From assembly GCA_005116835.1 (NCBI GenBank), contig SWDM01000024.1:62001-126000 (forward strand): a stretch of 64,000 bases of DNA. Direction: 5' to 3'. Origin of the DNA: Nitrospira sp. (GTDB lineage: Bacteria; Nitrospirota; Nitrospiria; Nitrospirales; Nitrospiraceae). Positions 13,179 to 28,792 of this stretch are shown here, piece after piece. Position 1 is the stretch's first letter. Each line of letters starts with the position of its first letter. The notes beneath the pieces are model-generated. The model searched no databases and had not been told where the DNA came from. It saw nothing but the letters and a program-made list of their open reading frames with translations. The position numbers were made by a program, and so were the translations under genes.

Positions 13179-13604
13179 ATGCAAGTCCTCCTGTTAGTCC
13201 TTCTGCTGTTGCTCCCACTCACTACCCAGGCCGAATATCTCGGCAATCTCAGTGCTAATGAGTTCGACGCGAACTCTACCGCCAATCCCTTCCGTGCCAG
13301 CAGTCCCTTCTCGTCCAACAGCGTCACGAATGAGATTGGCAACTATGGTGGTCCCTTCAGCAATCAATCGGCTACCAACCCATACGCGACCGAGGCACCA
13401 CGCCTGTACGACCAGCAGGGGAACTATCGCGGCAAGCTGAGCGCGAACCCGTGCGACCCCGACTCGACCAGTAACCCCTACGGCCGCTACGGCTCTCTGT
13501 TCTCGCCGGACTCGATCAATAATCCCTTCGGTGTTGGGAGTCCTTACAATTCCAGCAGTCCCTCGAATCCCTACGGCCGCGGCCTTCGAATTGAAGGACG
13601 CTAG
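13179..13604 (+). CDS. Secreted NPYG-repeat protein
   Basis: The protein has 141 residues. A signal peptide (about 1-18, ending TQA) is followed by a repetitive region with units like YLGNLSANEFDANSTANPF and SNPYG, about every 12-15 residues. The repeats are rich in Asn, Pro, Ser and Gly. GGAGG lies before the ATG. This family is widespread and uncharacterised; the repeats suggest a short secreted or periplasmic beta structure. The C-terminal part is closely repeated in the protein at 30664-30876. Confidence 0.75.
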   Translation: MQVLLLVLLLLLPLTTQAEYLGNLSANEFDANSTANPFRASSPFSSNSVTNEIGNYGGPFSNQSATNPYATEAPRLYDQQGNYRGKLSANPCDPDSTSNPYGRYGSLFSPDSINNPFGVGSPYNSSSPSNPYGRGLRIEGR

Positions 13605-13864: not shown

Positions 13865-14392
13865 TCAAAGGTACGTCTTGATAATGGCGAGCGCGATAAA
13901 AGCGAGGAACGCCGCGTCTGTTTTCTCGTAACGGACGGTGACGCGCCTGTTTTCCTTGATCTTGCCGAAGAACATCTCGATCTTTCTGCGAAGTCTATAG
14001 ATGGCCTTGTCGTAGACGATGGAGATTTTGCGGTTTTTACGACCCGGGATAACAGGGATGTTGTTGTTGGCTTCGAGTGCGCGGCGGTGGGCATCGCTGT
14101 CGTAGCCCATGTCCTCGACGACATAGCAACCGAAGACCTCCGCCGTCAGTTCACCCGCCTGCGTCATATCGGATACGTTGCCGCCCGTCAAAAAACCCTC
14201 GACCACATGATCTTCTGCGGTAATTGCCAGATGGAGCTTTGTTGTCACGCCGACGCGGTTGACACCTCTGGACCAGGCCCCCCTTTTGCGCCGCCGCCGT
14301 GGCGGTGAATCTTCATCGTGGTTGAGTCTGCCAGCACCATGTTCATCGTCACTTTCTTGCCCTGCTGCAGCTTCATCAATACACGCCACCAT
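13865..14392 (-). CDS. IS5-family transposase, downstream frame
   Basis: This frame supplies the C-terminal part of the DDE transposase. It contains GGNVSDMTQA with the second catalytic Asp, and RRKIEMFFGKIK with the catalytic Glu. It overlaps the upstream frame (14245-14625) and lacks a sensible independent start. It is probably made by -1 frameshifting at a run of As and Gs near the overlap, as in related elements. Confidence 0.75.
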   Translation of the reverse strand: MVACIDEAAAGQESDDEHGAGRLNHDEDSPPRRRRKRGAWSRGVNRVGVTTKLHLAITAEDHVVEGFLTGGNVSDMTQAGELTAEVFGCYVVEDMGYDSDAHRRALEANNNIPVIPGRKNRKISIVYDKAIYRLRRKIEMFFGKIKENRRVTVRYEKTDAAFLAFIALAIIKTYL

Positions 14393-14625
14393 AAGCCCTT
14401 CTCACCTCCACGCTTGAATCGCAGATAAATCGGATGCCACTTCCCGTAGCATGATGGCAGATCACGCCAGGGGCAGCCCGTTCGTAAAATGTACAAAATG
14501 GCACAGAACACATGATAGTGGCTGATCGTCGGCGGGCGACCCTTCCAGATATAATCCCCTTCGATCAACGGCTTGATGGTTTGGTCAAAATACTCCCGCG
14601 GTATCGGAAACAAACGCTTGTCCAT
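14245..14625 (-). CDS. IS5-family transposase, upstream frame
   Basis: This frame carries the N-terminal part: a helical region with GRPPTISHYHVFCAILYILR and CPWRDLPS, typical of IS5 transposases, and the first catalytic Asp in LADSTTMK. Near its end it becomes out of phase with the family at a run of As and Gs, where frameshifting would continue into the downstream frame. Confidence 0.75.
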   Translation of the reverse strand: MDKRLFPIPREYFDQTIKPLIEGDYIWKGRPPTISHYHVFCAILYILRTGCPWRDLPSCYGKWHPIYLRFKRGGEKGLWWRVLMKLQQGKKVTMNMVLADSTTMKIHRHGGGAKGGPGPEVSTASA

Positions 14626-14930: not shown

Positions 14931-16493
14931 ATGCTGGAACGCATCTTCATTGTACCTCCACTGGCATTCGCTCGCGTCGGGACGTCGTCGACACCATGCG
15001 ACGCCTTTTTGTGGGGGCCGAATGATGTCTCGCCGCGCGGCTCCGGCACCACCACCCTTCAACCGATCGAAACTCTAGACATCGCGTCGAACGGGACCGT
15101 CAGTTCCAGCATGCCAAACACGATCATTTTTCGCGACCATGAAGGCATCCGGTCGGTCTGTCCGTTTTTCGAGCTTCATGCGAATTGGACCGATGCGGGG
15201 GGGGGATCGTATTCAGGGCCTGTGACAGAAGCGCTCTTGGGCGAGTGGGGTATCGCGCTTTCTGACATCGAATGGGGCGTGGAGCTCGGAAATCTGAAGG
15301 CGTTTCACTATACTTACGCCGTTGGCGATAGGGTCCAAGGCCAAGCGACGGTCAGGGCAGACCATCATGATCGCACGACTGTCACGGGGTCTTCACCGAA
15401 CGGGCCGACACCACCGCTAATCAGAGCCGAGAGTGGCATGCCATTGGGAGCCATACAGGCCGCAAGGCCAAGCGCAGCGTTCCCTGAAATCCGCTTGCGT
15501 TTTTATGCGCCGAGCGGCGCCATCTATGGTCCCGAGGACCTACCCGAACGATTGAAGACTCTTAACTATGACCTCGAAATCGCTGGGGTAAAGCCGAATG
15601 CGGAATGGCGCGGATTCAAGTTGCCGAGTTCAAGCCTGATCGTGAATCCGGACGCAAGCTGGCCCCAGTACGTGCCCGACATTGCAACGCTCGGGCCGTT
15701 CTACAATGAAGACAATCGAAATACGCCTTCAGGACTGCTCGCGGCCCCGTATTTCTCCATTCCTTGGATCAAGGGCACGCCACTTCTTCAGCGTTCTCTT
15801 GGACTTGTCGACGATGTGAGCGATGGATTTGTGAAGTGCAAGTTCAAACTCAAGGAGAAAGAGTTTGTTGCGGTGTCTCGTGTGGTGGTTGGGCCGCCGG
15901 ACTTTGCACCCGCGAATCGACCACCTGTCTCGTTGGCCGACAACTTGGCGGATCGGGAAGATCGCAAAGGCCCACGCGACTTCGATGGCTGGACGCACGC
16001 GGAACTTGGCGAGATTGTCCTAGACATCCTTGAGCGCGCACTGGAAACCTCGGATCTAATGCACCGTGACTACCAGAATGCGCGGGCGGTGCGTACGAAC
16101 ATGGATGAACTCGCGGAGGCTGGCTCAAGGTCACCATTTGATGCAGACGATCTTCGATCGATGCTTTGGCCAGTGCCGGACGCAACTCTTATCAAGGAAG
16201 GCCGGATTGGTGGGATGTCTTTGTCAGAGGCGGGCACATGGAAACACCGTCGCTACGCGACACTTGAGTATCTCGAGGACCGGTTTCGAGAGAATCCCAC
16301 GGTTTTCGATCAGATGATCCGGCGCCCAGTCGATCCCAATGGTTATTACGACCGGCGCATGCCCGCGCTCATTCGAGGCTCTGACGGCAGACCGCTTCAT
16401 CTGACTCGTCGGCAATGGGAAATTTTTCGGCTGTGGATTGCAGGCCTCAAGGCCGCCGCCCAGGCCGCTGGCATGCAGCCAGGGAAAGGCTGA
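14931..16493 (+). CDS. Short LodA-like protein, first gene of the quinone-oxidase-type operon
   Basis: The protein has 520 residues from the ATG at 14931, with GGAGGGG 7 bases upstream. It starts IFIVPPLAFARVG, matching the N-terminal PP-x-x-x-ARVG motif of LodA-type oxidases and of the gene at 22872. The middle contains paired beta strands like the LodA N-terminal domain. It is about 130 residues shorter than the second copy and has no Cys in its C-terminal half, so it cannot form a cysteine tryptophylquinone in the known way. It may be a subunit, scaffold or degenerate paralogue. The radical SAM gene follows after one base. Confidence 0.68.
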   Translation: MLERIFIVPPLAFARVGTSSTPCDAFLWGPNDVSPRGSGTTTLQPIETLDIASNGTVSSSMPNTIIFRDHEGIRSVCPFFELHANWTDAGGGSYSGPVTEALLGEWGIALSDIEWGVELGNLKAFHYTYAVGDRVQGQATVRADHHDRTTVTGSSPNGPTPPLIRAESGMPLGAIQAARPSAAFPEIRLRFYAPSGAIYGPEDLPERLKTLNYDLEIAGVKPNAEWRGFKLPSSSLIVNPDASWPQYVPDIATLGPFYNEDNRNTPSGLLAAPYFSIPWIKGTPLLQRSLGLVDDVSDGFVKCKFKLKEKEFVAVSRVVVGPPDFAPANRPPVSLADNLADREDRKGPRDFDGWTHAELGEIVLDILERALETSDLMHRDYQNARAVRTNMDELAEAGSRSPFDADDLRSMLWPVPDATLIKEGRIGGMSLSEAGTWKHRRYATLEYLEDRFRENPTVFDQMIRRPVDPNGYYDRRMPALIRGSDGRPLHLTRRQWEIFRLWIAGLKAAAQAAGMQPGKG

Positions 16494-16494
16494 A

Positions 16495-17829
16495 ATGGAG
16501 AATACTACAGACTTTCATCTCTTTGAAAGCGAAGTTGGACGCCATCTGCTTGTGGTCGACGGAAGCCGCCTCTATGATATTTCGCAGGAACTGCCGACTG
16601 ATGAGGGAACCCTGTCCAAGCTGGTTGAAGAAATCAGTCCGGCAGGCTCGCAGCGAATCGACGGCACGGCGCTGTCGCCGCCACCCCTCCAAACCTTATC
16701 GCTGAACGTCGCCCAAACATGCAATATGGGCTGCAGCTACTGCTATGCCGGCCAGGGGGCCTTTGGTGGCAAGCCAAAATTGATGTCCTACGATGTGGCG
16801 GAAGCCTCCGTCGATCGTTTGATCGCGGAATCCGGAGAAGGCGCAGACCTAGTGATCGGCTTCATGGGTGGTGAGCCGTTTGTCAATCGGCCGCTTCTGT
16901 GCTCGATCATGCCTTACGCCGAACGAGCAGCGGCTGCCGCCAGACGCACCGTACGCTTTTCTCTCACGACAAACGCGACCTTGCTGGAACCCGATGATGC
17001 GAAGCTTCTGGCGCGTCATCGAACCCAGGTCGCCGTGTCGATCGACGGCCCGAAAGCCGTCAATGATGCCGTGCGTCCGATGAATGACGGAAGCAGCTCT
17101 TACGACCGTCTCATTCGTGGCCTGCAGTTGTTTGAAAAGCACGGCAGGCCGTATCACCTCTCAGCGCGAATCACCGTGACACCAAGCGCCAGGGATTTGC
17201 CAGGCATTCTCGATCACGTTCTATCTTTAGGTTTCGACTCTGCCGGGTTCTCACCGGTGTTGGTTTCGCTGGATCCGAGTCAAGCTCTTGAGCAAACGGA
17301 TTTCGATTGGATGCTGGAAGGCATGATCGCAAGCGGACAGAAGGCACAGCAGTCAATACTTGCCGGCAAGCGGTATTCATTTTCAAATTTCGAGACTGCT
17401 CTCCAGGAAATTGATCGCGGAAGCCACCGGCCGTATCCATGCGGCGCCGGCGCCGCATATCTCAGCGTTAGCGCCGATGGAGGCTTGTATGCCTGCCACC
17501 GACTCGTGGAAGACCCAAAGCATCGCTTTGGCGACGTTTGGAGTGGCAGTGACTATTCGGCACGGGCCAGCCATCTCACCGCGCGCCATGTAGACCGCCA
17601 GGAGCCATGCCGCTCCTGCTGGGCTCGCTATCTTTGCGGCGGGGGTTGCTATCACGAGGTAGATCGCCGCGGTCGGCCGGCCTGCGACTATATCCGCGGC
17701 TGGCTCGAATTTTGCCTTGCTTCCTACGTTGTACTCAAGGAGCGCGCACCAGACTATTTTCGAAATCCCGATCTGTACTTCGACACGACGGTCGCCGGCA
17801 GGCTGCAATCCGCCTATTCTGATAATTAG
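16495..17829 (+). CDS. Radical SAM/SPASM maturase, QhpD-like
   Basis: The 444-residue protein has the radical SAM cluster motif CNMGCSYCYAG near residue 79. The C-terminal SPASM region has CGAGAAYLSVSADGGLYACHR, then CRSCWARYLCGGGCYHE and a final Cys pair, enough for two auxiliary 4Fe-4S clusters. These signatures resemble QhpD, which makes intra-protein thioether crosslinks in quinohemoprotein amine dehydrogenase. A short N-terminal domain (1-65) may bind the substrate. I chose the ATG at 16495, one base after the previous stop, with GGGAAAGG upstream. No QhpC-like gamma subunit is nearby, so the substrate is probably a LodA-like or neighbouring protein. That is inference. Confidence 0.85.
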   Translation: MENTTDFHLFESEVGRHLLVVDGSRLYDISQELPTDEGTLSKLVEEISPAGSQRIDGTALSPPPLQTLSLNVAQTCNMGCSYCYAGQGAFGGKPKLMSYDVAEASVDRLIAESGEGADLVIGFMGGEPFVNRPLLCSIMPYAERAAAAARRTVRFSLTTNATLLEPDDAKLLARHRTQVAVSIDGPKAVNDAVRPMNDGSSSYDRLIRGLQLFEKHGRPYHLSARITVTPSARDLPGILDHVLSLGFDSAGFSPVLVSLDPSQALEQTDFDWMLEGMIASGQKAQQSILAGKRYSFSNFETALQEIDRGSHRPYPCGAGAAYLSVSADGGLYACHRLVEDPKHRFGDVWSGSDYSARASHLTARHVDRQEPCRSCWARYLCGGGCYHEVDRRGRPACDYIRGWLEFCLASYVVLKERAPDYFRNPDLYFDTTVAGRLQSAYSDN

Positions 17830-17840
17830 GAGAATTCGTC

Positions 17841-19841
17841 ATGCCGAAGAGTGATCTCAAAAAGTTCAAGTTATTTCCCCGCAATCTCACGGCCCGGGCT
17901 GATGCGTTGGTGCGCGGCAATCCAGTAACGAGCCGTCCAGAGTCCGGCGTCGAAAACTGCTTTCCAGGGCTGGAGTTTGATCAGCGCAACATTGATAGCG
18001 GCTTCTTCCCGGGGCTCCAGTTCGAAATGCACCACACTGCGGGCGTGGTCCTGAGGGATTTCGACAATAGCGCTCCAGCCGCAGCCTTCCTAAGGCGCAC
18101 TGACATCCAGCAAGGAATTTTTCTCGCTTACGTCCAGGGAGTATTTGCCTCCCGGATGACAACAGTTGCGCCAGCTCCACGCGTTGTCAGGTTTACGCCG
18201 CCAGCCGGCCTCGAAAGCTGGAGGTTCGTACGTGATCTTGAGGTCGGCGAGATTGCAGTCGTTCTTTGCGACAGGCAGGCGTTTTCGAGAGTGGCAAATG
18301 GCAACCTTGACATTGACGTGGTCACGGAATGGCTCAAGAAGCGCGAGAATCGTGAAGAAAATCTGCCTGGCATTGGCCGCTTCGTTCTGTTGTTCGGCGA
18401 ACGCGTGCGCTTCCTGACTTCCAATGGCGTTATCGACCCGGATTCGATAGAGCCAGGCCAGCTAACCCAGAGTCTTTGCTCGCCCTGGCAATACGACTTC
18501 GCAGACTGTGGCTGTTTCTACTGGGCCTCAAACAAACCAGACCTGGTTTCTAACGACGCACAGCCGGAACAGGTACTGAATTTCCAGCGCAAAGATCGCA
18601 GCGAAGGTGGGGATCGCGCGACCACTGCTGACGACTGGGTTCTTAAGCATGAAAACCTTTGGGACGGGGATAGTGTGATCGTCAGGCATGCCGAAATGCT
18701 GACCTGGTGGGCGGATCTGCCCTTTGTTATCAGGCGCAGAGAGACGGATCGCTACGAACCGACTATCGTGAAACCGCCGAAGAAGCCTCTGGACCGTGTA
18801 ACAATCATTGATCGCCTGAGCAGGTTGGCCTCCGTCGAGCATGCCTTGGCGATCGAGTATCTCTATGCCTACTACTCTCTCGGGCTTCCTCCCACCAGGC
18901 CACCAGGACTGGGGACAGTTCAGGCGTGCATCTACACCGCCGGCACCGAGATTTTTCAGGTCGCCATCGACGAGATGCGGCACTTGAGAGCGGTGAATGA
19001 AATCCTGATTGAATTGGGCGCACCCTGGCAGCTCGATCGGGCTGATATTATTGGTGAGGATTTCGATGGTGATGGCGTCGCCTTTCAGCGGCCATTTGCT
19101 TTACGCCCGCTCGACCGAACGCAGCTTGGCTGGTTCATAGCCGTTGAGGCCGCCAGCCAGAACCAGGGTGATGAGAACACGATTGACGGGATGTACACCC
19201 TCATTTTGCGAAGCGTCGCGGTAAGCGATGAATTTTCGGCGGACCAAAAGAACAGGCTGTCTGCTCTCATCAAGGTCATCATTGACGAAGGCATCGACCA
19301 CTATGCGCGCTTCTCGCGGGCCAAGACTGCGCTGGCCGGAATTCCTGAGAACGAGTATTTGAAGGTGCAGACGGGGCCCGAGACTGTGGCAGCGGGCCAT
19401 CCGGACAGCGTGCTGCAGGATGCGGCGGACGCGGCCTATCTTGTAGTTCTGCGTTCACTCGACTATGTCTTCCAGGTCGGGGACTCCCAGAGGGGTGCCA
19501 TGATGGAATCTGCACGCCGGGCCATGTACAACATGGACGACGCTGCCCGCTCCCTTGCTGCGCGGTCGCGTGGGGCGTTGTTCGACTATCGCCGCTTCGG
19601 GCGGATACAAATGCAGCCTGCGGTCAAGGTGGGAGCTGCGGCTGGCGCTATGGCCCCTGACGCTGCCCAACTCAGAACCCGCAAAGTCGAGGAGGCGCAA
19701 GCGATCGGCGCGCCGCTGCGTGCCGTGCTCAATCAACTGGCTACCGCGTCCATGGGTGAACACGTTGAACTCGCGCGCCGCATGGGTCAGCGGCTCGATA
19801 CGATGACCCATGCCTTCGAGGCCATAGATAAAGGCACCTGA
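17841..19841 (+). CDS. Ferritin-like di-iron domain protein
   Basis: The 666-residue protein holds a ferritin-like four-helix domain at about 320-490. Likely metal ligands are Glu in VEHALAIEY, Glu and His in EIFQ..DEMRH, Glu in AVEAAS and Glu/His in DEGIDHY. This layout resembles the iron-dependent ferritin-like domain of VioB/RebD-type enzymes. The N-terminal 300 residues form a separate unknown domain. The C-terminal tail is Ala-rich and helical. AGGAG precedes the start 11 bases after the radical SAM stop, and the next gene starts 2 bases after its stop, so it is deep in the operon. An oxygen-using step in cofactor formation is plausible. Confidence 0.72.
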   Translation: MPKSDLKKFKLFPRNLTARADALVRGNPVTSRPESGVENCFPGLEFDQRNIDSGFFPGLQFEMHHTAGVVLRDFDNSAPAAAFLRRTDIQQGIFLAYVQGVFASRMTTVAPAPRVVRFTPPAGLESWRFVRDLEVGEIAVVLCDRQAFSRVANGNLDIDVVTEWLKKRENREENLPGIGRFVLLFGERVRFLTSNGVIDPDSIEPGQLTQSLCSPWQYDFADCGCFYWASNKPDLVSNDAQPEQVLNFQRKDRSEGGDRATTADDWVLKHENLWDGDSVIVRHAEMLTWWADLPFVIRRRETDRYEPTIVKPPKKPLDRVTIIDRLSRLASVEHALAIEYLYAYYSLGLPPTRPPGLGTVQACIYTAGTEIFQVAIDEMRHLRAVNEILIELGAPWQLDRADIIGEDFDGDGVAFQRPFALRPLDRTQLGWFIAVEAASQNQGDENTIDGMYTLILRSVAVSDEFSADQKNRLSALIKVIIDEGIDHYARFSRAKTALAGIPENEYLKVQTGPETVAAGHPDSVLQDAADAAYLVVLRSLDYVFQVGDSQRGAMMESARRAMYNMDDAARSLAARSRGALFDYRRFGRIQMQPAVKVGAAAGAMAPDAAQLRTRKVEEAQAIGAPLRAVLNQLATASMGEHVELARRMGQRLDTMTHAFEAIDKGT

Positions 19842-19843
19842 CA

Positions 19844-20884
19844 GTGATTCGAAGCCCGCGCATCGAAATTGTTGGCTGCGGAATCGCAGCGGCTACATCC
19901 GCCCTGCTGGCTTCCCAGAGAGGCTATGCGGTCAGCTTTGAGAGAGGAAGCAATCCATCCGAACGTATCGTCTCAGTCCCGCGTGACACGGTTGATCTCG
20001 TTCAGGGCCTGACAGGACTTTCCATCGTACGGACTGTGCCATCGCGCTGGGTAACTGCCCGGCGCGTTGCCTGGGAGAGCCGCGAGTTCTCGAGCATGCC
20101 ACTTGAAGTACTGGTTTTCGATGCCGACGCATTGGCCCGGGCAATAGCCGAGCGGTTCGTTTCGCAGGAATTCGAAGTGATCGCCGCAACAGAAAATGCT
20201 CCGCCGTCGGACTGGACGGTTGTGGCGGAAGGCCGCACTGCGGGTATCGCGCGCGTAACTGCAGGAGTGCGACAAGCCGTTGGCGGCTGGGTTGCCGGCT
20301 TGCCGGGACTGGATGAAGCGACGATGGTTGTTGCGTGCGTTCCCCACGCATGGATTTTTGCGGCCCCGCACCCCGTATCGGGAATCACGCTCATCGCAGT
20401 TCACCCGCCTGCACGCAGCGGAGTGGCTCCGCGCGACATCCTGGGGGATGCCGTCGATTTCCTGTGGCCAGGATTCGGGGCGAGCGTGAAGCGTCATAGC
20501 GGGCGCAGCGTGCCGGCAGCACCATCCTTCGCCCCGGACTGCGCATCACATGGGCGTATTGCGGCTGGTGAGGCCGCGGTTTCCTTTGATCCGTTACGCG
20601 GGGACGGCGTGGGTCATGCCGTACGTGGAGCGCTGCTCGCCCAATCAATAATCGCTGCCATTGCCAGTGGCGCCGATCAAGGCCCATGCCTCACTTATTA
20701 CAGATCACGGCTCGTGTGCGCTTTTGCCGAGCACGTGCAAACATGTTCGGCACATTACCGGCGGGCCTGGAACGCGCCTGTCTGGTGCGACGAGATCGCG
20801 CTAATGTCTGAGTGCATTGCAAAAACAGCGGCAGAGCGCCCGCTCGGTTTTCGGCTTGAAGGGCGTGAGCTCGTGCCAGCATAG
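19844..20884 (+). CDS. FAD-dependent oxidoreductase, QhpG/LodB type
   Basis: The 346-residue protein starts with a Rossmann dinucleotide fold (IEIVGCGIAAATSALLASQ, a slightly altered GxGxxA pattern). It ends with the FAD-binding segment GEAAVSFDPLRGDGVGHAV, a close match to the GDA..P..G.G motif of aromatic hydroxylases. Flavoproteins of this class hydroxylate the Trp precursor of tryptophylquinone cofactors (LodB, QhpG). A second such gene occurs at 24818. The start is a GTG two bases after the ferritin-like gene. It lacks a membrane anchor. Confidence 0.75.
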   Translation: MIRSPRIEIVGCGIAAATSALLASQRGYAVSFERGSNPSERIVSVPRDTVDLVQGLTGLSIVRTVPSRWVTARRVAWESREFSSMPLEVLVFDADALARAIAERFVSQEFEVIAATENAPPSDWTVVAEGRTAGIARVTAGVRQAVGGWVAGLPGLDEATMVVACVPHAWIFAAPHPVSGITLIAVHPPARSGVAPRDILGDAVDFLWPGFGASVKRHSGRSVPAAPSFAPDCASHGRIAAGEAAVSFDPLRGDGVGHAVRGALLAQSIIAAIASGADQGPCLTYYRSRLVCAFAEHVQTCSAHYRRAWNAPVWCDEIALMSECIAKTAAERPLGFRLEGRELVPA

Positions 20885-20943
20885 GCGTTCTCACGGTCAA
20901 ACAGCGCGCTGTCGTCAGACGGGAGATTTTTCGGAGGGAAACT

Positions 20944-22173
20944 ATGTCAACCCCGCATCGGTACGCGCAGCCCGCGCTGCGTCGGCCCAGAAAACTTCAG
21001 CTGGCAACCAATGCAGGGCTCGCGCCGGGCGCCGGGAGTGGCATTGGCATTCGTGGCGTTGAAGTTGTCCAAGCCATTCAGTCTGTTGACAACAGCGTGC
21101 GGCTGATCGCAGACAAACCTGCGGTCGTCCGTCTCTATCTCGACCCAGCCAGCGTCGCATCGGCTTCGCTGGTCACAGGTGAACTCGCATGGCGGCGGGA
21201 TGGAGGGGGAATGACCTACCTACCGGCCATGAATCGCGTCAAGGTAAAGCCGACCAAGCGCCCAACCCTGGATGAACAGCGTTTTGACATCGACCTGAGC
21301 ATCAACTTCCGTCTGCCCCAAGAGGCCTTGAAGGCCGGAGAGCTTGAACTCTTCGTTCGACGGCTGTCCGTGCCAGCCGGAGCTGACATACCGATTGCGA
21401 CACCAGTCCAGTTCAAAGTCCGATTTCATAGCGCGCCGGTATTGCGTGTTCGCGCGATCGGCTTGCGGTATAAAAGTCTGACGACCCCCGGAACCTTCGT
21501 GTCACCCGAAGCGATTCATTTCATGTATCTAAAATCGTACCTTCAAAGAGCGTATCCGGTAGCTGCAGTTGAATGGTCCCAGCTTGTGGTCGATGCCGAC
21601 CTAATCGCTCCTCCATTCCCGGCGAATGCCTCGGATCTTGCAAATGCGCAACTCTCTGCCTTGCGCGCACGCGAGATTTCGTCAGGAGTCGATCCGCGAA
21701 CGCACTACTACGGTCTTGTCGACAACGACCGGGGCAAGGAAGGGTGTTTCATGCGCGGAAGCGCCGCCTATGATGTGAAGAGGGGCATTTTCGGCCTAGT
21801 GGCTTCCGGCCCAACAGGAGTACCCAACGGCTGGACCGGGGACACTGATGCAAGCTTCGCCGACTGGTACGGAGCGCATGAACTCGGCCACACATTTCAG
21901 CGACGCCATCCTGGTTTTCCTTTGGGAACTCAACCACCCGACCCTGAAGAGAAGAGTTTTCCTTATCCCGACGGTTTGATCACCACCAGGCCCGGCAACC
22001 GTTTCGTGGGACTCGATATTGGAGATCCCTCTTTGCCGACAGCGATGCGCGCCCTGCCTGGCGAGCTACATCACGACGTCATGACTTACGCGGACAGCCA
22101 GTGGCTCTCGGCGTATACCTATGAAGCCATACTCAACCGGCTCTTGGACGAAGAAGTCCGCCTTGCACCCTGA
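20944..22173 (+). CDS. Metzincin-type zinc metalloprotease
   Basis: The 409-residue protein has HELGHTFQRRH near residue 317, an HExxHxxxxxH zinc site with metzincin spacing (Gln replaces the usual Gly), and a Met-turn candidate in HHDVMTYA about 60 residues later. The first 200 residues form a beta-rich domain. No signal peptide is evident. GGAGG lies upstream. In the QHNDH system a subtilisin-like protease trims the crosslinked subunit, so a protease here could play the same maturation role. The following gene (22193) encodes a likely beta-sandwich partner. Confidence 0.78.
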   Translation: MSTPHRYAQPALRRPRKLQLATNAGLAPGAGSGIGIRGVEVVQAIQSVDNSVRLIADKPAVVRLYLDPASVASASLVTGELAWRRDGGGMTYLPAMNRVKVKPTKRPTLDEQRFDIDLSINFRLPQEALKAGELELFVRRLSVPAGADIPIATPVQFKVRFHSAPVLRVRAIGLRYKSLTTPGTFVSPEAIHFMYLKSYLQRAYPVAAVEWSQLVVDADLIAPPFPANASDLANAQLSALRAREISSGVDPRTHYYGLVDNDRGKEGCFMRGSAAYDVKRGIFGLVASGPTGVPNGWTGDTDASFADWYGAHELGHTFQRRHPGFPLGTQPPDPEEKSFPYPDGLITTRPGNRFVGLDIGDPSLPTAMRALPGELHHDVMTYADSQWLSAYTYEAILNRLLDEEVRLAP

Positions 22174-22192
22174 TAAGCTAGGGAGTAACTCC

Positions 22193-22861
22193 ATGCTGAA
22201 AACCGAAACTGGCAAGTTTGTGAATCTTGTGGCTTCAGTAGACCGTAAGAAGGGTGTGGGCAAGATCCTGTACGTGAATCCTAGCACGGTAGCAACGATG
22301 GCTGATGTTGCAGGCGTCGAGCTGGGCGTTGCTCCCTCGCCATTTGATGCATTTGAAATTTCGATTCAGGATTCTGGTGGTCGTGAGCTGCGCCGGTTTC
22401 ATCCCACCATTCAAGTATCAAACTGCGAGGGAGATGGACCGCCCGAAACCGGCATGGTCAACGAAGACATCCCCGTGCTGGAAGGCATGAAGCGGGTGGC
22501 GCTACTGCACAAGGGAGTTGAGGTAAGCCATTTCGAGGCCGGTGAGTCTCGTCCGGCGTTGGAACGCGCGGCGGGAACGGCGCCTCTCTCCCTCAGTGCC
22601 CCGCTGGCCGTCAAGCCCAACCGTAGGGGTTTGAGTACGGCGGCGGCAGTGCCGGCCAAAGAAGGAGTGACATACACTGTGCAGGTAAAACCCGAAGGAG
22701 CTTCAGCTTGGCAGACCATCGCGGTAGGTCGGCAAACACCTAATGCGGAGATTGACCGCAACCAGTTTCCGGGATCTAAAGCCGCCATGGTGCGCGTTCT
22801 TCGGAGCACGGGTTTTGAGGATGAGATTTTTTCTGAGCAAGAGATAGATCTGAACTACTGA
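22193..22861 (+). CDS. Unknown protein, probably beta-sandwich, partner of the metalloprotease
   Basis: The 222-residue protein starts at the ATG at 22193 after GGGAG. It is Val/Ile/Gly-rich with alternating strands and a Pro/Ala linker near residues 120-160, which suggests two beta domains. No catalytic motif is seen. It lies 19 bases after the metalloprotease and 10 bases before the second LodA-like gene, and so belongs to the operon. I do not recognise the family. Confidence 0.65.
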   Translation: MLKTETGKFVNLVASVDRKKGVGKILYVNPSTVATMADVAGVELGVAPSPFDAFEISIQDSGGRELRRFHPTIQVSNCEGDGPPETGMVNEDIPVLEGMKRVALLHKGVEVSHFEAGESRPALERAAGTAPLSLSAPLAVKPNRRGLSTAAAVPAKEGVTYTVQVKPEGASAWQTIAVGRQTPNAEIDRNQFPGSKAAMVRVLRSTGFEDEIFSEQEIDLNY

Positions 22862-22871
22862 GGCAACACAA

Positions 22872-24821
22872 ATGACGAACGGCAGCAACAATGCAATCAA
22901 TCCGGCCGAGATTGTGGACTTGGCGGTCTATCCGCCGCTTGGCATCGCGCGTGTCGGCAATGCAGAAGGGGAAGCGGACTATTTCACTGCAGCCGAAGTT
23001 ATCGGCGCCTTGCCCACGGATCCCGGCGCACTACGCGATGCGCAAGGCAAGATCAAACGCCAGGCAGTCCGGTTCCGGATCTACGCGCGATTGACCTCTG
23101 GTGGGGTCCGCGAATTGACACTGGACGACGGAGTTGAAATTGAGTGGCACGTGACGGTGGCCAACCTTAAGGCCGGCTGGTATGAGTTCACGAATGCCCT
23201 CGACTTGCCGGATGGGCTCTCCATAACTGCGCCGAAGCGAAATGCCGATACGTCTTCCGGCCGCTTCCGTCTGGACATTACTCCACCACCACGAACAATC
23301 GCAGGTCGCGATCTTTCGGGTGCCGGCTACATTCTTGAAGGCCGGTTCTTCTCGACGCCAGTCTACCTCGGCGAGCTACGCACCGATTCACAGGGACGGC
23401 TGCTGTTCCTTGGTGGACGTGGCCTTGCCGCACCTCACTGGCCGGGAACGAAGCCTACAACCTTCGCCAACAACACTCTGTGGTTCGATGACGTAGCCGA
23501 CGGGCCTGTTCGCGCCCGGATCACGATAGGAGGGAAAGTGTTCGACGCCACGCCGGGGTACGTTGCCGTGGCGCCCCCGAATTACGCGCCTGGACTCTTC
23601 GGCGTTGTGACGATGGACGATGTGGTGCGCGACCTGTTCGCGGCACAGAACTGGCTTGAACTGCCGCTCGAGACACGATTCACCCGCGACATCTGGCCAA
23701 TCTTCTCGAGGTTGACAGGAATGCAGTGGGTCAACCACGGCCTGTTCATGGCTCATGGTTTTGGCTCACCTCTTGATACCGGGCATCCGGATGTGCTTGC
23801 CAGGCTCACTGACGTGTCGGCGCAGGGGCGCGCCTGGCGTATGGCGGTGCTGGCCCTTTTCCGTGATCCTGCGCTTGGCGGCGCAGTCAATCGTTCCAAG
23901 CTACCTTACCTGTACGGCGATGCTTTCGGCGACAAGGACGACCACGCTCGAGGACTTTTGGCGGTCACGGCGACCATGTATCGTTACCTTATGGCCTGGG
24001 CGCGAGGCGAGTTCGTCAACGACTGGCAAGGAACACCGCCGCCAGTTCATTTTGACGAGCTGTCGCCAGCCGATCAAATGGAGCATCTGTCGCGCGCTCC
24101 GCTTTACGAGTGCCTCGGCGGCCCATTTCATCCGGGCATCGAGTTGACGTGGATCATGAGGCGTGCATCTCTTTGGACGGCACCTTACCGCCTGAAGGTA
24201 CTGGAGGAAGGCGAGCCGGCGCAGCAAGACTATGGGGCCGGGTTGACGTCCGACATATGCCTAGCCACCGAGGGGCCGCTTCGTGGTGTGGCGCCGGGAG
24301 CGCTTACCCGCTGGCTCGGCATTCCATGGCATACAGACGAAGCCTCTTGCCAGTCTGACTTCGAGTATGCCCCGTCAACCTACCTGTCGATGCCCAGCTA
24401 TTGGGGCGCGCGTGTTCCGAATCAGGTATTGAGCACTGAAGCCTGGTCGCGTTCCACCGACGGCGCAAGTCCGGTATTACAGCGTCTGAAGCATTCGGCT
24501 TACCGGGAGGATTGGACGCGCGACATCAACGGCCGCAACTATTACGAACGCATCGCCAACATGGTGCAGGAATGGTGGATGCTGGGGATGATCGTTCCGC
24601 GCGACACGCCGGCACACTTGCGTAACCTTGGCCTTCCGGCCACATCGCACGTCGAGAGTGGGCGCCATCCGTCAAATGCCGGGTCCAACGACAAGCTCAA
24701 GTTAATGGAGGCTATCGAGAGGGTAGATTCGCCCGTGCCGCCGGACGTCGCGGCGCGTGGAGTGGTCCCGTCGGGGGAAGGCAAACCACCGCGTCGCGTT
24801 TACCATCGCGGCGAGGTATGA
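22872..24821 (+). CDS. LodA-like oxidase, candidate cysteine-tryptophylquinone enzyme
   Basis: The 649-residue protein has the family N-terminal motif AVYPPLGIARVGN (about 18-30) and C-terminal conserved segments GGPFHPGIELTW and WLGIPWHTDEASC, then SYWGARVPNQVL. Cys493, with Asp489 four residues before it, matches the D-x3-C arrangement around the CTQ cysteine of LodA. Trp511, Trp525 and Trp548 are candidates for the quinone-forming Trp. Family members oxidise amino groups of amino acids (LodA on lysine, GoxA on glycine), releasing hydrogen peroxide. The substrate here is unknown. The stop overlaps the LodB-like start by 4 bases, the usual lodAB arrangement. Confidence 0.83.
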   Translation: MTNGSNNAINPAEIVDLAVYPPLGIARVGNAEGEADYFTAAEVIGALPTDPGALRDAQGKIKRQAVRFRIYARLTSGGVRELTLDDGVEIEWHVTVANLKAGWYEFTNALDLPDGLSITAPKRNADTSSGRFRLDITPPPRTIAGRDLSGAGYILEGRFFSTPVYLGELRTDSQGRLLFLGGRGLAAPHWPGTKPTTFANNTLWFDDVADGPVRARITIGGKVFDATPGYVAVAPPNYAPGLFGVVTMDDVVRDLFAAQNWLELPLETRFTRDIWPIFSRLTGMQWVNHGLFMAHGFGSPLDTGHPDVLARLTDVSAQGRAWRMAVLALFRDPALGGAVNRSKLPYLYGDAFGDKDDHARGLLAVTATMYRYLMAWARGEFVNDWQGTPPPVHFDELSPADQMEHLSRAPLYECLGGPFHPGIELTWIMRRASLWTAPYRLKVLEEGEPAQQDYGAGLTSDICLATEGPLRGVAPGALTRWLGIPWHTDEASCQSDFEYAPSTYLSMPSYWGARVPNQVLSTEAWSRSTDGASPVLQRLKHSAYREDWTRDINGRNYYERIANMVQEWWMLGMIVPRDTPAHLRNLGLPATSHVESGRHPSNAGSNDKLKLMEAIERVDSPVPPDVAARGVVPSGEGKPPRRVYHRGEV

Positions 24822-25924
24822 CCCTTGGGGAAGGCACTCCACACGTCTGCGAGGTAGCCATCGCCGGCGGAGGGCCGGCGGGCGCGACGGCCGGGCGGAT
24901 CCTGGCTGGCTGGGGTTTCGATGTCGTGATCATCGCCGCACCTGAAGGCGAAAAAGCCGGTGAAGTGATTGGGCCCGAAGCCATTCATATTCTTGATGCA
25001 CTGGGCCTCACTGAGCTTTTTGCGCGGTCGCCTGAAATTGCGACGCGATGCGACGGTGTCGTTTCACATTGGCCATCGTCGGGCATGGATCACTCTGACC
25101 ACAGATTGCGCGGTACATGCGGTTGGGTGATTGACCGGCCGTGCCTTGGCATGGCGCTCATGAAGCTGGCGCTTGAAAATGGATGCCGCTGGTTGTACGG
25201 AACCGTCACGACGTGCAGGAAACTGGATCCGTCGGGATATCAACTCTCGGTAAATACGCGCGATGAAGCGCAAGTCGTAGAGGCAAAGTTTGTTGTCGAT
25301 GCGACCGGCCGCACTGGAAGCATTGTTCGCCGGCTTGGCGCGCGTCGAATTGTCGATGACAGGCTCATCGCTGCCGCGACCTGTTTGGATCGCACAACAT
25401 CACAACCCGATCCGTACTTACGCCTTATCGCGACCCCCGACGGATGGTGGTATTGCAGTGATGGCCCAGCGGGTGACACGCGTGTGGCGGTGGTAGCCGA
25501 CCCTCGTCTTGACGCGGGTAAGCCGCAAGTCCTCGGCGGCGCCTTGCGGCTGATCGTCAAAAAATTTCACCAAGCTTGGCAGAGCAACGAACTCGCATCG
25601 CGCATGATTATTCTGGATGCTTCCAGCTCTCGGCTGGATCGTTGTGCCCAGGATGGATGGCTAGCGGTGGGCGACGCGGCAACGGCTTTTGATCCGCTTT
25701 GTGGCCAAGGGTTGGCACAAGCGTTTGGCTCGGCACTTGCTGCGGCTCACGCCGTCCGTGAATGCTCAGCAGGAAACGCGGACGCGTTGGTCGCTTATGA
25801 CCATGCAGTGCAAGACACCTATCGACACTCACGGGCTCAGCTCGAGCTGCGTTACGCCTACCGAGCAGAGAGTGAGCGTACCCCGTTTTGGCGCGCCCGC
25901 ATACGCCCGAGCGCTGCGGTCTAG
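24818..25924 (+). CDS. LodB-like FAD-dependent oxidoreductase
   Basis: The 368-residue protein has a GxGxxG motif (VAIAGGGPAGATAGRIL), a GDG-like segment (VDATGRTG) and the FAD motif VGDAATAFDPLCGQGLAQA. These belong to the tryptophan-halogenase/hydroxylase superfamily that includes LodB, which is needed for CTQ formation in LodA. It overlaps the upstream LodA-like gene by ATGA. Together with the first flavoprotein at 19844 there are two candidate Trp hydroxylases in this operon. It is the last gene of the plus-strand run and faces a DyP gene on the other strand. Confidence 0.83.
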   Translation: MTLGEGTPHVCEVAIAGGGPAGATAGRILAGWGFDVVIIAAPEGEKAGEVIGPEAIHILDALGLTELFARSPEIATRCDGVVSHWPSSGMDHSDHRLRGTCGWVIDRPCLGMALMKLALENGCRWLYGTVTTCRKLDPSGYQLSVNTRDEAQVVEAKFVVDATGRTGSIVRRLGARRIVDDRLIAAATCLDRTTSQPDPYLRLIATPDGWWYCSDGPAGDTRVAVVADPRLDAGKPQVLGGALRLIVKKFHQAWQSNELASRMIILDASSSRLDRCAQDGWLAVGDAATAFDPLCGQGLAQAFGSALAAAHAVRECSAGNADALVAYDHAVQDTYRHSRAQLELRYAYRAESERTPFWRARIRPSAAV

Positions 25925-26044: not shown

Positions 26045-27568
26045 TCACACAGTTGAGAAGAAGCTTAGACTGGGTGAGAACATATACTCCCCACCGGCTG
26101 CCACCACCCACCCCCCCGGTACCGTGAGGGGAAATGTGGTGTTGCCATTATTCAAAAGAATCGTGCTGTCGCGTGCGCCACCGATAATCGGGTCAACACC
26201 GCTGTTTGCATGTGGCTTGTTTTCGTCGTTTACCCAGTCATTCATTATGAATTCAAATTGGTCAACGATAGAAGTTTGATATGCAACGAAGAGAAGACCG
26301 CGATCCCCATCAGATTTCCCTAATTCACGTCCGAAGGTAATACCGCGCCGCAGGATGAGCTTCTGAAATGTGCGCTCCATCGGGCCAATGTCTGTTGAGT
26401 CGTCTCGAGGCTGTACCTTTCTGATGTGTGCTGCAAATGGGCAAACTACGCCATTTGGATCCGCTAAATTGAGCGGATGCAGATCATTCGGAAGGGGGAC
26501 GGTTGTGGTTTCGCTGAATGTGAAGTGGTTTTCCCCAGCCTGGTTTTCTCCACGGTCGGTGTGCGGATCCCTCGCCAAAGGCCAACCGGACGCCCACCGA
26601 CCTACGAGCAAAGCCCCGAGTCGTTCAGGAGTGAGGTTTTGATCAAAGCCACGGCCACGGATCAAGGCTGACGCTGTGGCAAGAAACTTCTGGAACGCAA
26701 CAACATCTTGTCTAAGTCTACGGTAAACGAGAAAAGACCCGTTCTTCGCCCAAGTCGGTCCTGGCGGTTCTGAGTGCGGCCTCATGTCCTCAGGCTGGTC
26801 CCGCATCTGACGTGGATACCCAAATACGAAATGACCTGGCCATACGAGTTGACGTCCAGGAGCGGCGTACCTAGATCGGTAAGCGTTAAAATCTTGGCTG
26901 GGAGGCCAGACCCGCGGTTCGACAAAGTCATGAGCGGCGGCAGATGCGCGACCACGAATTGCTGGCAACGAGATGCCGTCTTTGAACCCGAAGTGTTCAT
27001 GGCCAGCCATTGCGCCTGGACGAACGCGGCCACGATCTACGTGGATACGCTGAAACCCGTTTGATCGCGCCGACGTAATCAACTCACGCTCTGCTCTTGC
27101 GGCCCAAACATCGTCGTCGGTCGCAAGAATGAGTAAGACGTCCGGCCTTTTCCGCCCGGAGCCGAACAACCATGTTTCTGTAGCACCCGGCGTCCCACTC
27201 CCGGTAGGCGGATCGCCAATCACACCCGCTCGGCTCTCCATGCCTAGTTTGAACGCGGCATCGTCGAACTCATCGATACCCGGCACTGCTAGCTTTTGAA
27301 GTCCTTCAGCCGAGATCGCGCAATTCAGGAACAGAAAATCCAGGTTGTCAGGATCGCGACCTAGCTTACGCCGCATCCCCTTCCAGAGGGTGTGGGCCTC
27401 CATAACTTCTTTCGCCGAAGACAGTCTCGGCGCAAGCCCCCTCAACCACTTCTTTGCGAGTTGAGCGTCAACGACACGGAGAAAAACGAAGTGCTGAGCG
27501 TCTTTCTTGAAACCGGGCAGAATGTTTCCCTGAATGTCGTCCAAGTCAAGAACGGGTTCCTGGTCCAT
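26045..27568 (-). CDS. DyP-type peroxidase
   Basis: The 507-residue protein carries GHEHFGFKDGIS, the GxxDG motif of dye-decolourising peroxidases, and the proximal haem His in CPFAAHIRKVQPR. The C-terminal FVAYQ and GGEY segments fit the family. It has no signal peptide. I place the start at MDQEP (27568); a TTG at 27607 would add 13 residues. It is the third gene of a minus-strand unit after the pYEATS-like protein and an unknown protein. It converges on the LodA/LodB operon, whose oxidase would produce peroxide, so a functional link is possible but inferred. Confidence 0.88.
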   Translation of the reverse strand: MDQEPVLDLDDIQGNILPGFKKDAQHFVFLRVVDAQLAKKWLRGLAPRLSSAKEVMEAHTLWKGMRRKLGRDPDNLDFLFLNCAISAEGLQKLAVPGIDEFDDAAFKLGMESRAGVIGDPPTGSGTPGATETWLFGSGRKRPDVLLILATDDDVWAARAERELITSARSNGFQRIHVDRGRVRPGAMAGHEHFGFKDGISLPAIRGRASAAAHDFVEPRVWPPSQDFNAYRSRYAAPGRQLVWPGHFVFGYPRQMRDQPEDMRPHSEPPGPTWAKNGSFLVYRRLRQDVVAFQKFLATASALIRGRGFDQNLTPERLGALLVGRWASGWPLARDPHTDRGENQAGENHFTFSETTTVPLPNDLHPLNLADPNGVVCPFAAHIRKVQPRDDSTDIGPMERTFQKLILRRGITFGRELGKSDGDRGLLFVAYQTSIVDQFEFIMNDWVNDENKPHANSGVDPIIGGARDSTILLNNGNTTFPLTVPGGWVVAAGGEYMFSPSLSFFSTV

Positions 27569-27607
27569 CACGGAGTCCCCGCGTGTTCTTCGATTAGATT
27601 CTGGCAA

Positions 27608-28792
27608 TCATCTTCTCAGATTGGACCGCTCCCCTCTCAGTGAAAGAATATTTAGAGGGAGCTGCTTCGGAGGCGTCCCTGTGCACCCAATTGGGCGCGG
27701 GGAAGTCAGTTGGGCAGGATCGCTTACCATCACGGCAACCCGAACGTTAATTCGAGAAGCTATTTGCGCGCCAAACTCAATTGGCTCACCCCCAATCTTG
27801 ATATCCGACACCGTGTATCCCTTGTCTCCGGGTACCGCATAGCTCGCGCGAACTATGTAAGACTGGTTCGGGTTAGGAGCGTGCGATCCTCGAAGCACTG
27901 TCCAGAAATTTCTCGCATCAGTTTTATCGGGCGTGATCCAGCCAGTCCAGTCAACCCCACTCATGTAAAGGCCTACCGGGTTTTCGATCGTGATGAATCG
28001 GTTTTCTCTAACGAAAGTATTGACGGTATGACCGATCCGCGGATCGCTCTGGCGATTCGGATCTCCGTAACCGGCACAGATGATAAGACCGAGCGCGTCG
28101 GAAATTGAGTCACCCAGCTTGTTGACTCGAAGTATGCTAGAACGTGAGACAATGTTCACTTGGGCACCAAGCGTATTGTTCGGTTGCTGCATATGTACCG
28201 CGTACTCGTTGTTGTGCCGATTCCACCAGTTATAATCCCCCTTCGCATCAGTCAGATCGTTCAATCCAATGGACGAAACGCCAGTAATCTCCCGGTACAG
28301 CTGAACCAAGAAGTTTCGAGATTCGGGGGAGTAGTCAAAAAGAAAATTATAGTACTCGGGCGGTTCGCTGGTAAAGATTACCTTTGCTATCTTGTTTTCC
28401 TCGTTCCGCGTGACCACCCATTCGCAGTACTCGTCCTGGATCCGCGTAATGATTTCGGGTTTTCGTGGAAATCGCTGCCGGGCATCCAGAAAGGCCAGCT
28501 TCTCGCGAACGGTATTGAACTGATCGTCGAAACTCGTTGGAAGTGCAGACCACGTGACATTCTTAGGTTGCGAGGTTGTGGGCATGGGCATTGAAGCGGG
28601 GTTGTAGACCCGTAGATCGCTGTCGGACCTTCCCCACAATCGCAGCTCTTCAAGTGCGGATAGATTTTCGTCGTTCGGTTTACCATAGAGATGTGTCTCG
28701 TAGGCATCGTTTATCATTTCACTCCAAGCTTCACGAAGGCCAGGAACTCGATCAAAATCTGTTAGTTTGGCAGTCGGATCAAAGACCCACAT
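27608..28792 (-). CDS. Unknown protein between pYEATS-like and DyP genes
   Basis: The 394-residue soluble protein is mixed alpha/beta and fairly rich in Asn, Trp and Tyr. I recognise no family. Conspicuous segments are DEYCEWVVTRNEENKIAKVIF near the middle and YNWWNRHNNEYAVHM, then a C-terminal half with YRSxx-like strands. It is transcribed between the membrane-bound pYEATS-like gene and the DyP gene with short gaps, so the three look like an operon. GC content is below that of the LodA/LodB operon. Confidence 0.7.
   Translation of the reverse strand: MWVFDPTAKLTDFDRVPGLREAWSEMINDAYETHLYGKPNDENLSALEELRLWGRSDSDLRVYNPASMPMPTTSQPKNVTWSALPTSFDDQFNTVREKLAFLDARQRFPRKPEIITRIQDEYCEWVVTRNEENKIAKVIFTSEPPEYYNFLFDYSPESRNFLVQLYREITGVSSIGLNDLTDAKGDYNWWNRHNNEYAVHMQQPNNTLGAQVNIVSRSSILRVNKLGDSISDALGLIICAGYGDPNRQSDPRIGHTVNTFVRENRFITIENPVGLYMSGVDWTGWITPDKTDARNFWTVLRGSHAPNPNQSYIVRASYAVPGDKGYTVSDIKIGGEPIEFGAQIASRINVRVAVMVSDPAQLTSPRPIGCTGTPPKQLPLNILSLRGERSNLRR

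Follow-up and report, generated by a model that had tools for sequence, protein, structure and literature searches.

The described systems closest to the locus analysed here include LodA/GoxA with their LodB/GoxB flavoproteins and the qhp operon (QhpA-QhpG) of quinohemoprotein amine dehydrogenase (QHNDH). In the latter, QhpD makes Cys-to-Asp/Glu thioethers in QhpC, and QhpG dihydroxylates the QhpC tryptophan (PMC7876137). The cysteine tryptophylquinone (CTQ) of QhpC lies at Cys37-Trp43 and one thioether at Cys41-Asp49; for the other two thioethers the text of the paper gives the number, not the positions (PMC7876137). The survey of fungal LodA-like group V loci, in the parts drawn on here, places LodA-like, LodB-like and PF12902 ferritin-like genes near one another and mentions no split LodA, and it nowhere uses the terms 'radical' or 'SPASM' (PMC4417212). 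In the open-licence literature no description of a split LodA together with a QhpD-like system was found, although one may exist elsewhere, and to this extent the claim of an earlier note on this DNA, that no system with such a gene set has been described, holds.

The locus consists of eight ORFs on the plus strand at positions 14931-25924 of the window, i.e., of the whole 64-kb stretch of DNA analysed. With intergenic gaps of 1, 11, 2, 59, 19 and 10 nt and one 4-nt overlap in the last pair (g7/g8), they form one closely spaced operon, and the tight eight-gene operon described in the earlier note is real. Judging from the encoded proteins, it comprises two predicted quinoprotein subsystems, a split one (g1-g4) and a conventional GoxA/LodA-type oxidase with its flavoprotein (g7/g8). 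The genes of the split cassette are also referred to by letter types, A for g1, R for g2, C for g3 and F for g4. Between the two subsystems lie g5 (409 aa; 20944..22173, plus strand) and g6 (222 aa; 22193..22861, plus strand), neither of which matched a Pfam family in the domain search. g5 is a putative zinc metalloprotease, as previously proposed, with the metzincin-type motif HELGHTFQRRH, which is kept in L101 and L102 and reads HELGHTFGRFH in L063. g6 is the one gene that had been listed as unknown; it co-occurs with g7-type LodA in other species.

Directly upstream of the operon are transposase-like ORFs on the minus strand (13865-14625), which, considering that related cassettes are often plasmid-borne or near transposases, are in line with a mobile history. 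Upstream of the transposase, a short protein with repeated S/TxNP-type units is encoded at 13179-13604. On the other side, both on the minus strand, lie a DyP-type peroxidase (26045..27607), a recurrent accessory neighbour also found near the cassette in L006, L008 and L076, and a recurrent 394-aa protein without assigned function (27608..28792), homologues of which occur in L006, L008, L019, L101 and L102.

g1 (type A, 520 aa; 14931..16493, plus strand) corresponds to the N-terminal part of a LodA-type quinoprotein and is without the cofactor segment. Its LodA_N score in the domain search is 22.1 bits, under the cut-off of 26.3. The profile of 80 g1 relatives nevertheless matches canonical LodA with an E of 8e-14; the AF2 model of g1 (pLDDT 86) has significant Foldseek matches to GoxA chains only, and in VIA it aligns to residues 2-424 of LodA 3weu (Z 13.3, rmsd 4.4, 325 residues). 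On the profile and the modelled fold, g1 is assigned to LodA_N despite its low score.

g3 (type C, 666 aa; 17841..19841, plus strand) carries the complementary part and combines a LodA-type cofactor segment with a ferritin-like domain in one chain. Its LodA_C score is 25.5 bits against a cut-off of 25, nine of nine relatives also match, and a profile built from 87 g3 relatives finds the LodA cofactor region with an E of 1.1e-4. In this profile match, Cys223 stands at the LodA CTQ cysteine and Trp228 at the tryptophan of the FW/YW motif. Asp512 and Cys516 of LodA correspond in a further alignment to Asp219 and Cys223 of g3. The FW/YW tryptophan we take to be the CTQ residue; its position was counted in the GoxA alignment, where it is presumably Trp697. 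The ferritin-like domain (18780..19586, plus strand; PF12902; conserved Glu333, Glu378, His381, Glu436 and His487) matches 3hl1 in VIA with a Z of 19.9. Near the top of the structure search with the g3 model stand only ferritin-like folds, and LodA and QhpC are absent. Their absence carries no weight, because the model, which is of unmodified g3, is disordered in the cofactor segment, with a pLDDT <50 that the missing partner may alone explain.

In the window and at nearly all loci the two LodA domains are encoded by separate genes, and in L077 the g1- and g3-type parts form a single ORF. As far as can be judged by sequence comparison, g1 and g3 are the two halves of one LodA-type protein, matching successive parts of LodA. 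The earlier note had counted two LodA-like proteins in the operon. One of these, g7, is indeed intact, but g1 is an N-terminal part only, the cofactor part residing in g3, a gene in which the ferritin-like domain had been recognised and the LodA_C segment missed.

The cofactor segment of g3 (residues 212-234; 18474..18542, plus strand) reads LCSPWQYDFADCGCFYWASNKPD, and the pattern [LM]CxPWxxDxxxCxCxYWxxxxPD is kept at 87 loci in many phyla. Glu45, Cys213, Asp219, Cys223, Cys225, Trp228 and Asp234 are each present in 87/87, and Cys40, which stands before PGLE, in 79/87. The invariance of CxCxYW and PGLE is partly selected, because both belonged to the search patterns; Cys213, Asp219 and Asp234 did not. 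QhpC residues 26-49 align to this segment. The spacing is the same in the two proteins from Cys to Asp (6), from Asp to Cys (4) and from Trp to Asp (6), and differs between the two cysteines (2 in g3 vs 4 in QhpC) and from Cys to Trp (5 vs 6). The other two QhpC thioethers are, we assume, Cys27-Asp33 and Cys7-Glu16. The proposed counterpart of the Cys7-Glu16 pair is Cys40...Glu45 of g3 (CFPGLE; 17958..17975, plus strand), where NCFPGLEFD parallels QhpC GCTTSFDPGWEID and GoxA FHPGVELTW when aligned by eye. The four cysteines, three acids and one tryptophan of g3 stand in the order of those in cross-linked, CTQ-bearing QhpC, so that the Cys/acid pattern for thioethers and CTQ is found in g3 at the level of residue order and spacing. 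The g3-QhpC profile match falls in this register, though weak when taken by itself, since three of 150 shuffles score equally high. PF08992, the QhpC family, has no match in g3 or its relatives, and a PF08992 search, in which true qhpC records do score, found no QhpC in the host genome. Intact LodAs, including g7, are without both extra cysteines. A divergent QhpC with CFW replacing CWW at the CTQ site is encoded on a Novosphingobium plasmid (L098, 8776-9153), which also has a deep-branching QhpD and a split cassette (L099).

An initial genome scan with the g3 sequence alone gave no relatives, which were found by a later alignment scan. With one genome taken per species, the scan comprised 185 relatives, from which 79 loci were kept; eight plasmid loci found by tblastn bring the total to 87. 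The hosts include Pseudomonadota, Actinomycetota, Cyanobacteriota, Planctomycetota, Acidobacteriota, Myxococcota and Chloroflexota. Among the 87 loci with a g3-type protein, g1 is present in 80, g2 in 80 and g4 in 76, and most of the missing cassette genes are near or past contig ends. The main gene orders are A-C-R-F (37) and A-R-C-F (29). The LodA-like and radical SAM/SPASM neighbourhood to which the earlier note had drawn attention thus exists elsewhere, as a four-gene core in dozens of genomes (71/87 loci), and this recurrence, together with that of all eight families in three more species, argues that the gene set is not due to chance. The g2 tree intermixes phyla, which suggests horizontal transfer.

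Two loci from one Acidobacteria metagenome-assembled genome, L077 (7627-9780) and L093, have g1- and g3-type genes, fused in L077, and neither R nor F in the vicinity, even though the L077 contig extends a further 9 kb on each side; they speak against the maturation of C by R and F proposed below. An FAD-linked oxidase, berberine-bridge-like by eye, lies beside the cassette in L046 (5235-7169) and at 13 other loci, in Rhodobacteraceae and Bradyrhizobium among others. A haem peroxidase, animal-type by eye, is found near the cassette in L051 (3963-5840), L008, L019, L064, L069 and L072; with DyP, two kinds of peroxidase thus recur near the cassettes. Several accessory clusters resemble antisense reading frames.

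g2 (type R, 444 aa; 16495..17829, plus strand) is a radical SAM/SPASM maturase with the cluster motif CxxxCxxC (Cys76, 80 and 83; 16720..16743, plus strand). Its best NCBIfam model is QhpD (TIGR03906), with 290.6 bits against an equivalog cut-off of 453. QhpD is the best named family in all three R proteins tested, and the QhpD cysteine pattern is conserved in R, in line with the QhpD-like cysteine motifs given in the earlier note. In the tree, all sampled g2 relatives are separate from QhpD with a support of 100/100. g2 also matches the PapB model (244.9 bits), the SCIFF maturase model (220.6 bits) and CteB 5wgg (PDB), as might be expected if its target were some unrelated small peptide of the kind found in ranthipeptide systems, and if its LodA-like neighbours were there for another cause. 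Such a target appears very unlikely, because the gaps of 1 and 11 nt flanking g2 leave no space for a precursor gene, R accompanies A and C in different phyla, and C has a QhpC-like acceptor pattern. No small Cys-rich precursor gene, which would place g2 in the ranthipeptide/SCIFF group, lies beside it.

g4 (type F, 346 aa; 19844..20884, plus strand) is FAD monooxygenase-like and nearest to QhpG (NF049967), with 78.8 bits against an equivalog cut-off of 240; its homologue in L012 (Bradyrhizobium) passes that cut-off with 279.9 bits. For 72 of the 76 F proteins, QhpG gives a higher score than the LodB-type g8 does. Considering the QhpD- and QhpG-like affinities of these enzymes and the restriction of the extra cysteines to g3, it is proposed that g2 and g4 mature g3, while g8 matures g7.

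Domain identities, the split homology, the conservation and the gene linkage are computed, and from these we infer every step of the chemistry as well as substrate, assembly and H2O2 use. It is probable, on the residues and genes described above, that g2 installs thioethers in g3 and that g4 hydroxylates its tryptophan, leading to CTQ in a two-chain g1+g3 oxidase. g1 would be the N-terminal scaffold, and g3 would provide the cofactor segment, flexible as long as it is unmodified, with which its disorder in the model agrees, and the ferritin-like domain. g2 would form the thioethers Cys213-Asp219, Cys225-Asp234 and probably Cys40-Glu45, and g4 would hydroxylate Trp228, which would then join Cys223 to give CTQ. 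Mature g3 together with g1 would constitute an amine or amino-acid oxidase producing H2O2, which may be handled by the ferritin-like domain or by the nearby DyP peroxidase. g7/g8 would be a second, conventional CTQ oxidase with its maturase.

The same enzymes might instead modify g3 to a product other than CTQ, in which the linked Cys, Tyr and Trp form another cofactor or a structural or metal-binding element, with the di-iron site of the ferritin-like domain as redox centre. Tyr227, adjoining Trp228, is also present in 87/87, and this fits such a product, as do the ferritin-like part, which occurs at 83 of the 87 loci (in 66 as a fusion and in 17 as a gene of its own, with none found at the other 4) and keeps its ligand residues across relatives, and the position of GoxA His583, which is Phe or Tyr in 85/87 in an alignment by eye. 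The positions of the CTQ Cys and Trp of LodA/GoxA are kept, however, and a QhpG-like flavoprotein is linked, so that a product of this kind seems rather unlikely. The new protein-derived cofactor envisaged in the earlier note is not needed, as the conserved residues fit CTQ and Cys-to-acid thioethers.

g7 (649 aa; 22872..24821, plus strand) is an intact GoxA/LodA-type CTQ oxidase, with 366.2 bits for GoxA, 198.5 for LodA_N and 116 for LodA_C. It has both LodA domains, the CTQ residues (Cys493 and, as proposed from the alignment with GoxA, Trp511) and a LodB/GoxB-type partner. Its scores are under the GoxA and LodA equivalog cut-offs, and its substrate is therefore left unassigned. The partner, g8 (368 aa; 24818..25924, plus strand), is a GoxB/LodB/QhpG-type flavoprotein (GoxB 163.6, QhpG 154.3 and LodB 133.8 bits, each under the cut-off) and the presumed maturase of g7; with g4, which is nearest QhpG, it makes up the two flavoproteins, one of them LodB-like, that had been recognised before. 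The nearest plasmid relatives of g7, in Mycetohabitans, Microvirga and Bradyrhizobium barranii, are about 10 kb or less from a split cassette. All eight gene families are also found in three other species, Microvirga (L101), B. barranii (L102) and a Rhizobiales genome (L063), and Mycetohabitans has the set without g5. The protease was seen beside g7/g8 at no more than a few loci and is not, as had been supposed, a core part of the system.

The joint presence of all eight families in this species and three others could be read as a sign of one merged pathway, in which both LodA-like proteins would be substrates of g2, g4 and g8 alike. This is very unlikely, since g7 is without the acceptor cysteines and most split cassettes are without g7 and g8; in addition, a flavoprotein accompanies more distant LodAs in Sinorhizobium and Rhizobium, near which neither a split cassette nor a radical SAM gene is annotated. 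The earlier note had likewise taken the two maturation strategies to be merged. LodA-type and Qhp-type maturation genes do stand in one operon, but two substrates are more in keeping with the sequences, because g1+g3 has the extra cysteines and goes with g2/g4, while g7, without them, pairs with g8.

The split system shares with LodA/GoxA and LodB/GoxB the fold of g1, the LodA_C motif of g3 with the CTQ Cys and Trp and an Asp four residues before the Cys, and a linked flavoprotein. It differs in having two chains instead of one and a Cys-Trp distance of 5 in g3 as against 65 in LodA, and adds two or three cysteines, a radical SAM enzyme, a ferritin-like domain and a flavoprotein nearest to QhpG. 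With the qhp operon it shares the Cys/acid order around the CTQ of QhpC and the QhpD- and QhpG-like maturases, these being the nearest named families. In contrast, g3 is outside the QhpC Pfam family, and the scaffold is LodA here and a cytochrome plus propeller there; none of the eight genes has the CxxCH heme motif that a diheme cytochrome subunit would show.

Among the structural matches of g1, the QHNDH alpha subunit, 1jju_A 352-486, is the first one not belonging to LodA/GoxA (Z 8.3, rmsd 3.6, 115 residues); antibody domains, however, score almost equally well. The g1 profile independently matches the QhpA profile with a score of 29.9, which none of 60 and none of 150 shuffles reached, and pairs g1 residue 1 with QhpA residue 381 (L094 QhpA residues 381-405). 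By a hand-counted alignment, QhpA 381 is 1jju_A 352, i.e., the structural alignment starts in the same register (LERIFIVPPLAFARVG vs PDRISIVPDLTIARIG). LodA itself matches QhpA more weakly at the same place, with eight of 150 shuffles as high. The g1-QhpA match and the resemblance of g3 to QhpC suggest that LodA and QHNDH share ancestry, whereas the QhpG paper regards the tryptophylquinone cofactor as convergently generated by divergent strategies (PMC7876137). That LodA/GoxA and QHNDH come from a LodA-like ancestor, with the split cassette near the intermediate (g1 corresponding to the QhpA C-terminal domain, g3 to QhpC, g2 to QhpD and g4 to QhpG), is a proposal for and against which we find the balance about even, and the shared ancestry may be regarded as the least certain part of the analysis.

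A third widespread system, with a LodA scaffold, the QhpC cross-link pattern and QhpD/QhpG-like maturases, makes common descent directly testable. Also named are a radical SAM protein-maturation system, the protein and residues on which it probably acts, and a possible class of two-chain oxidases.
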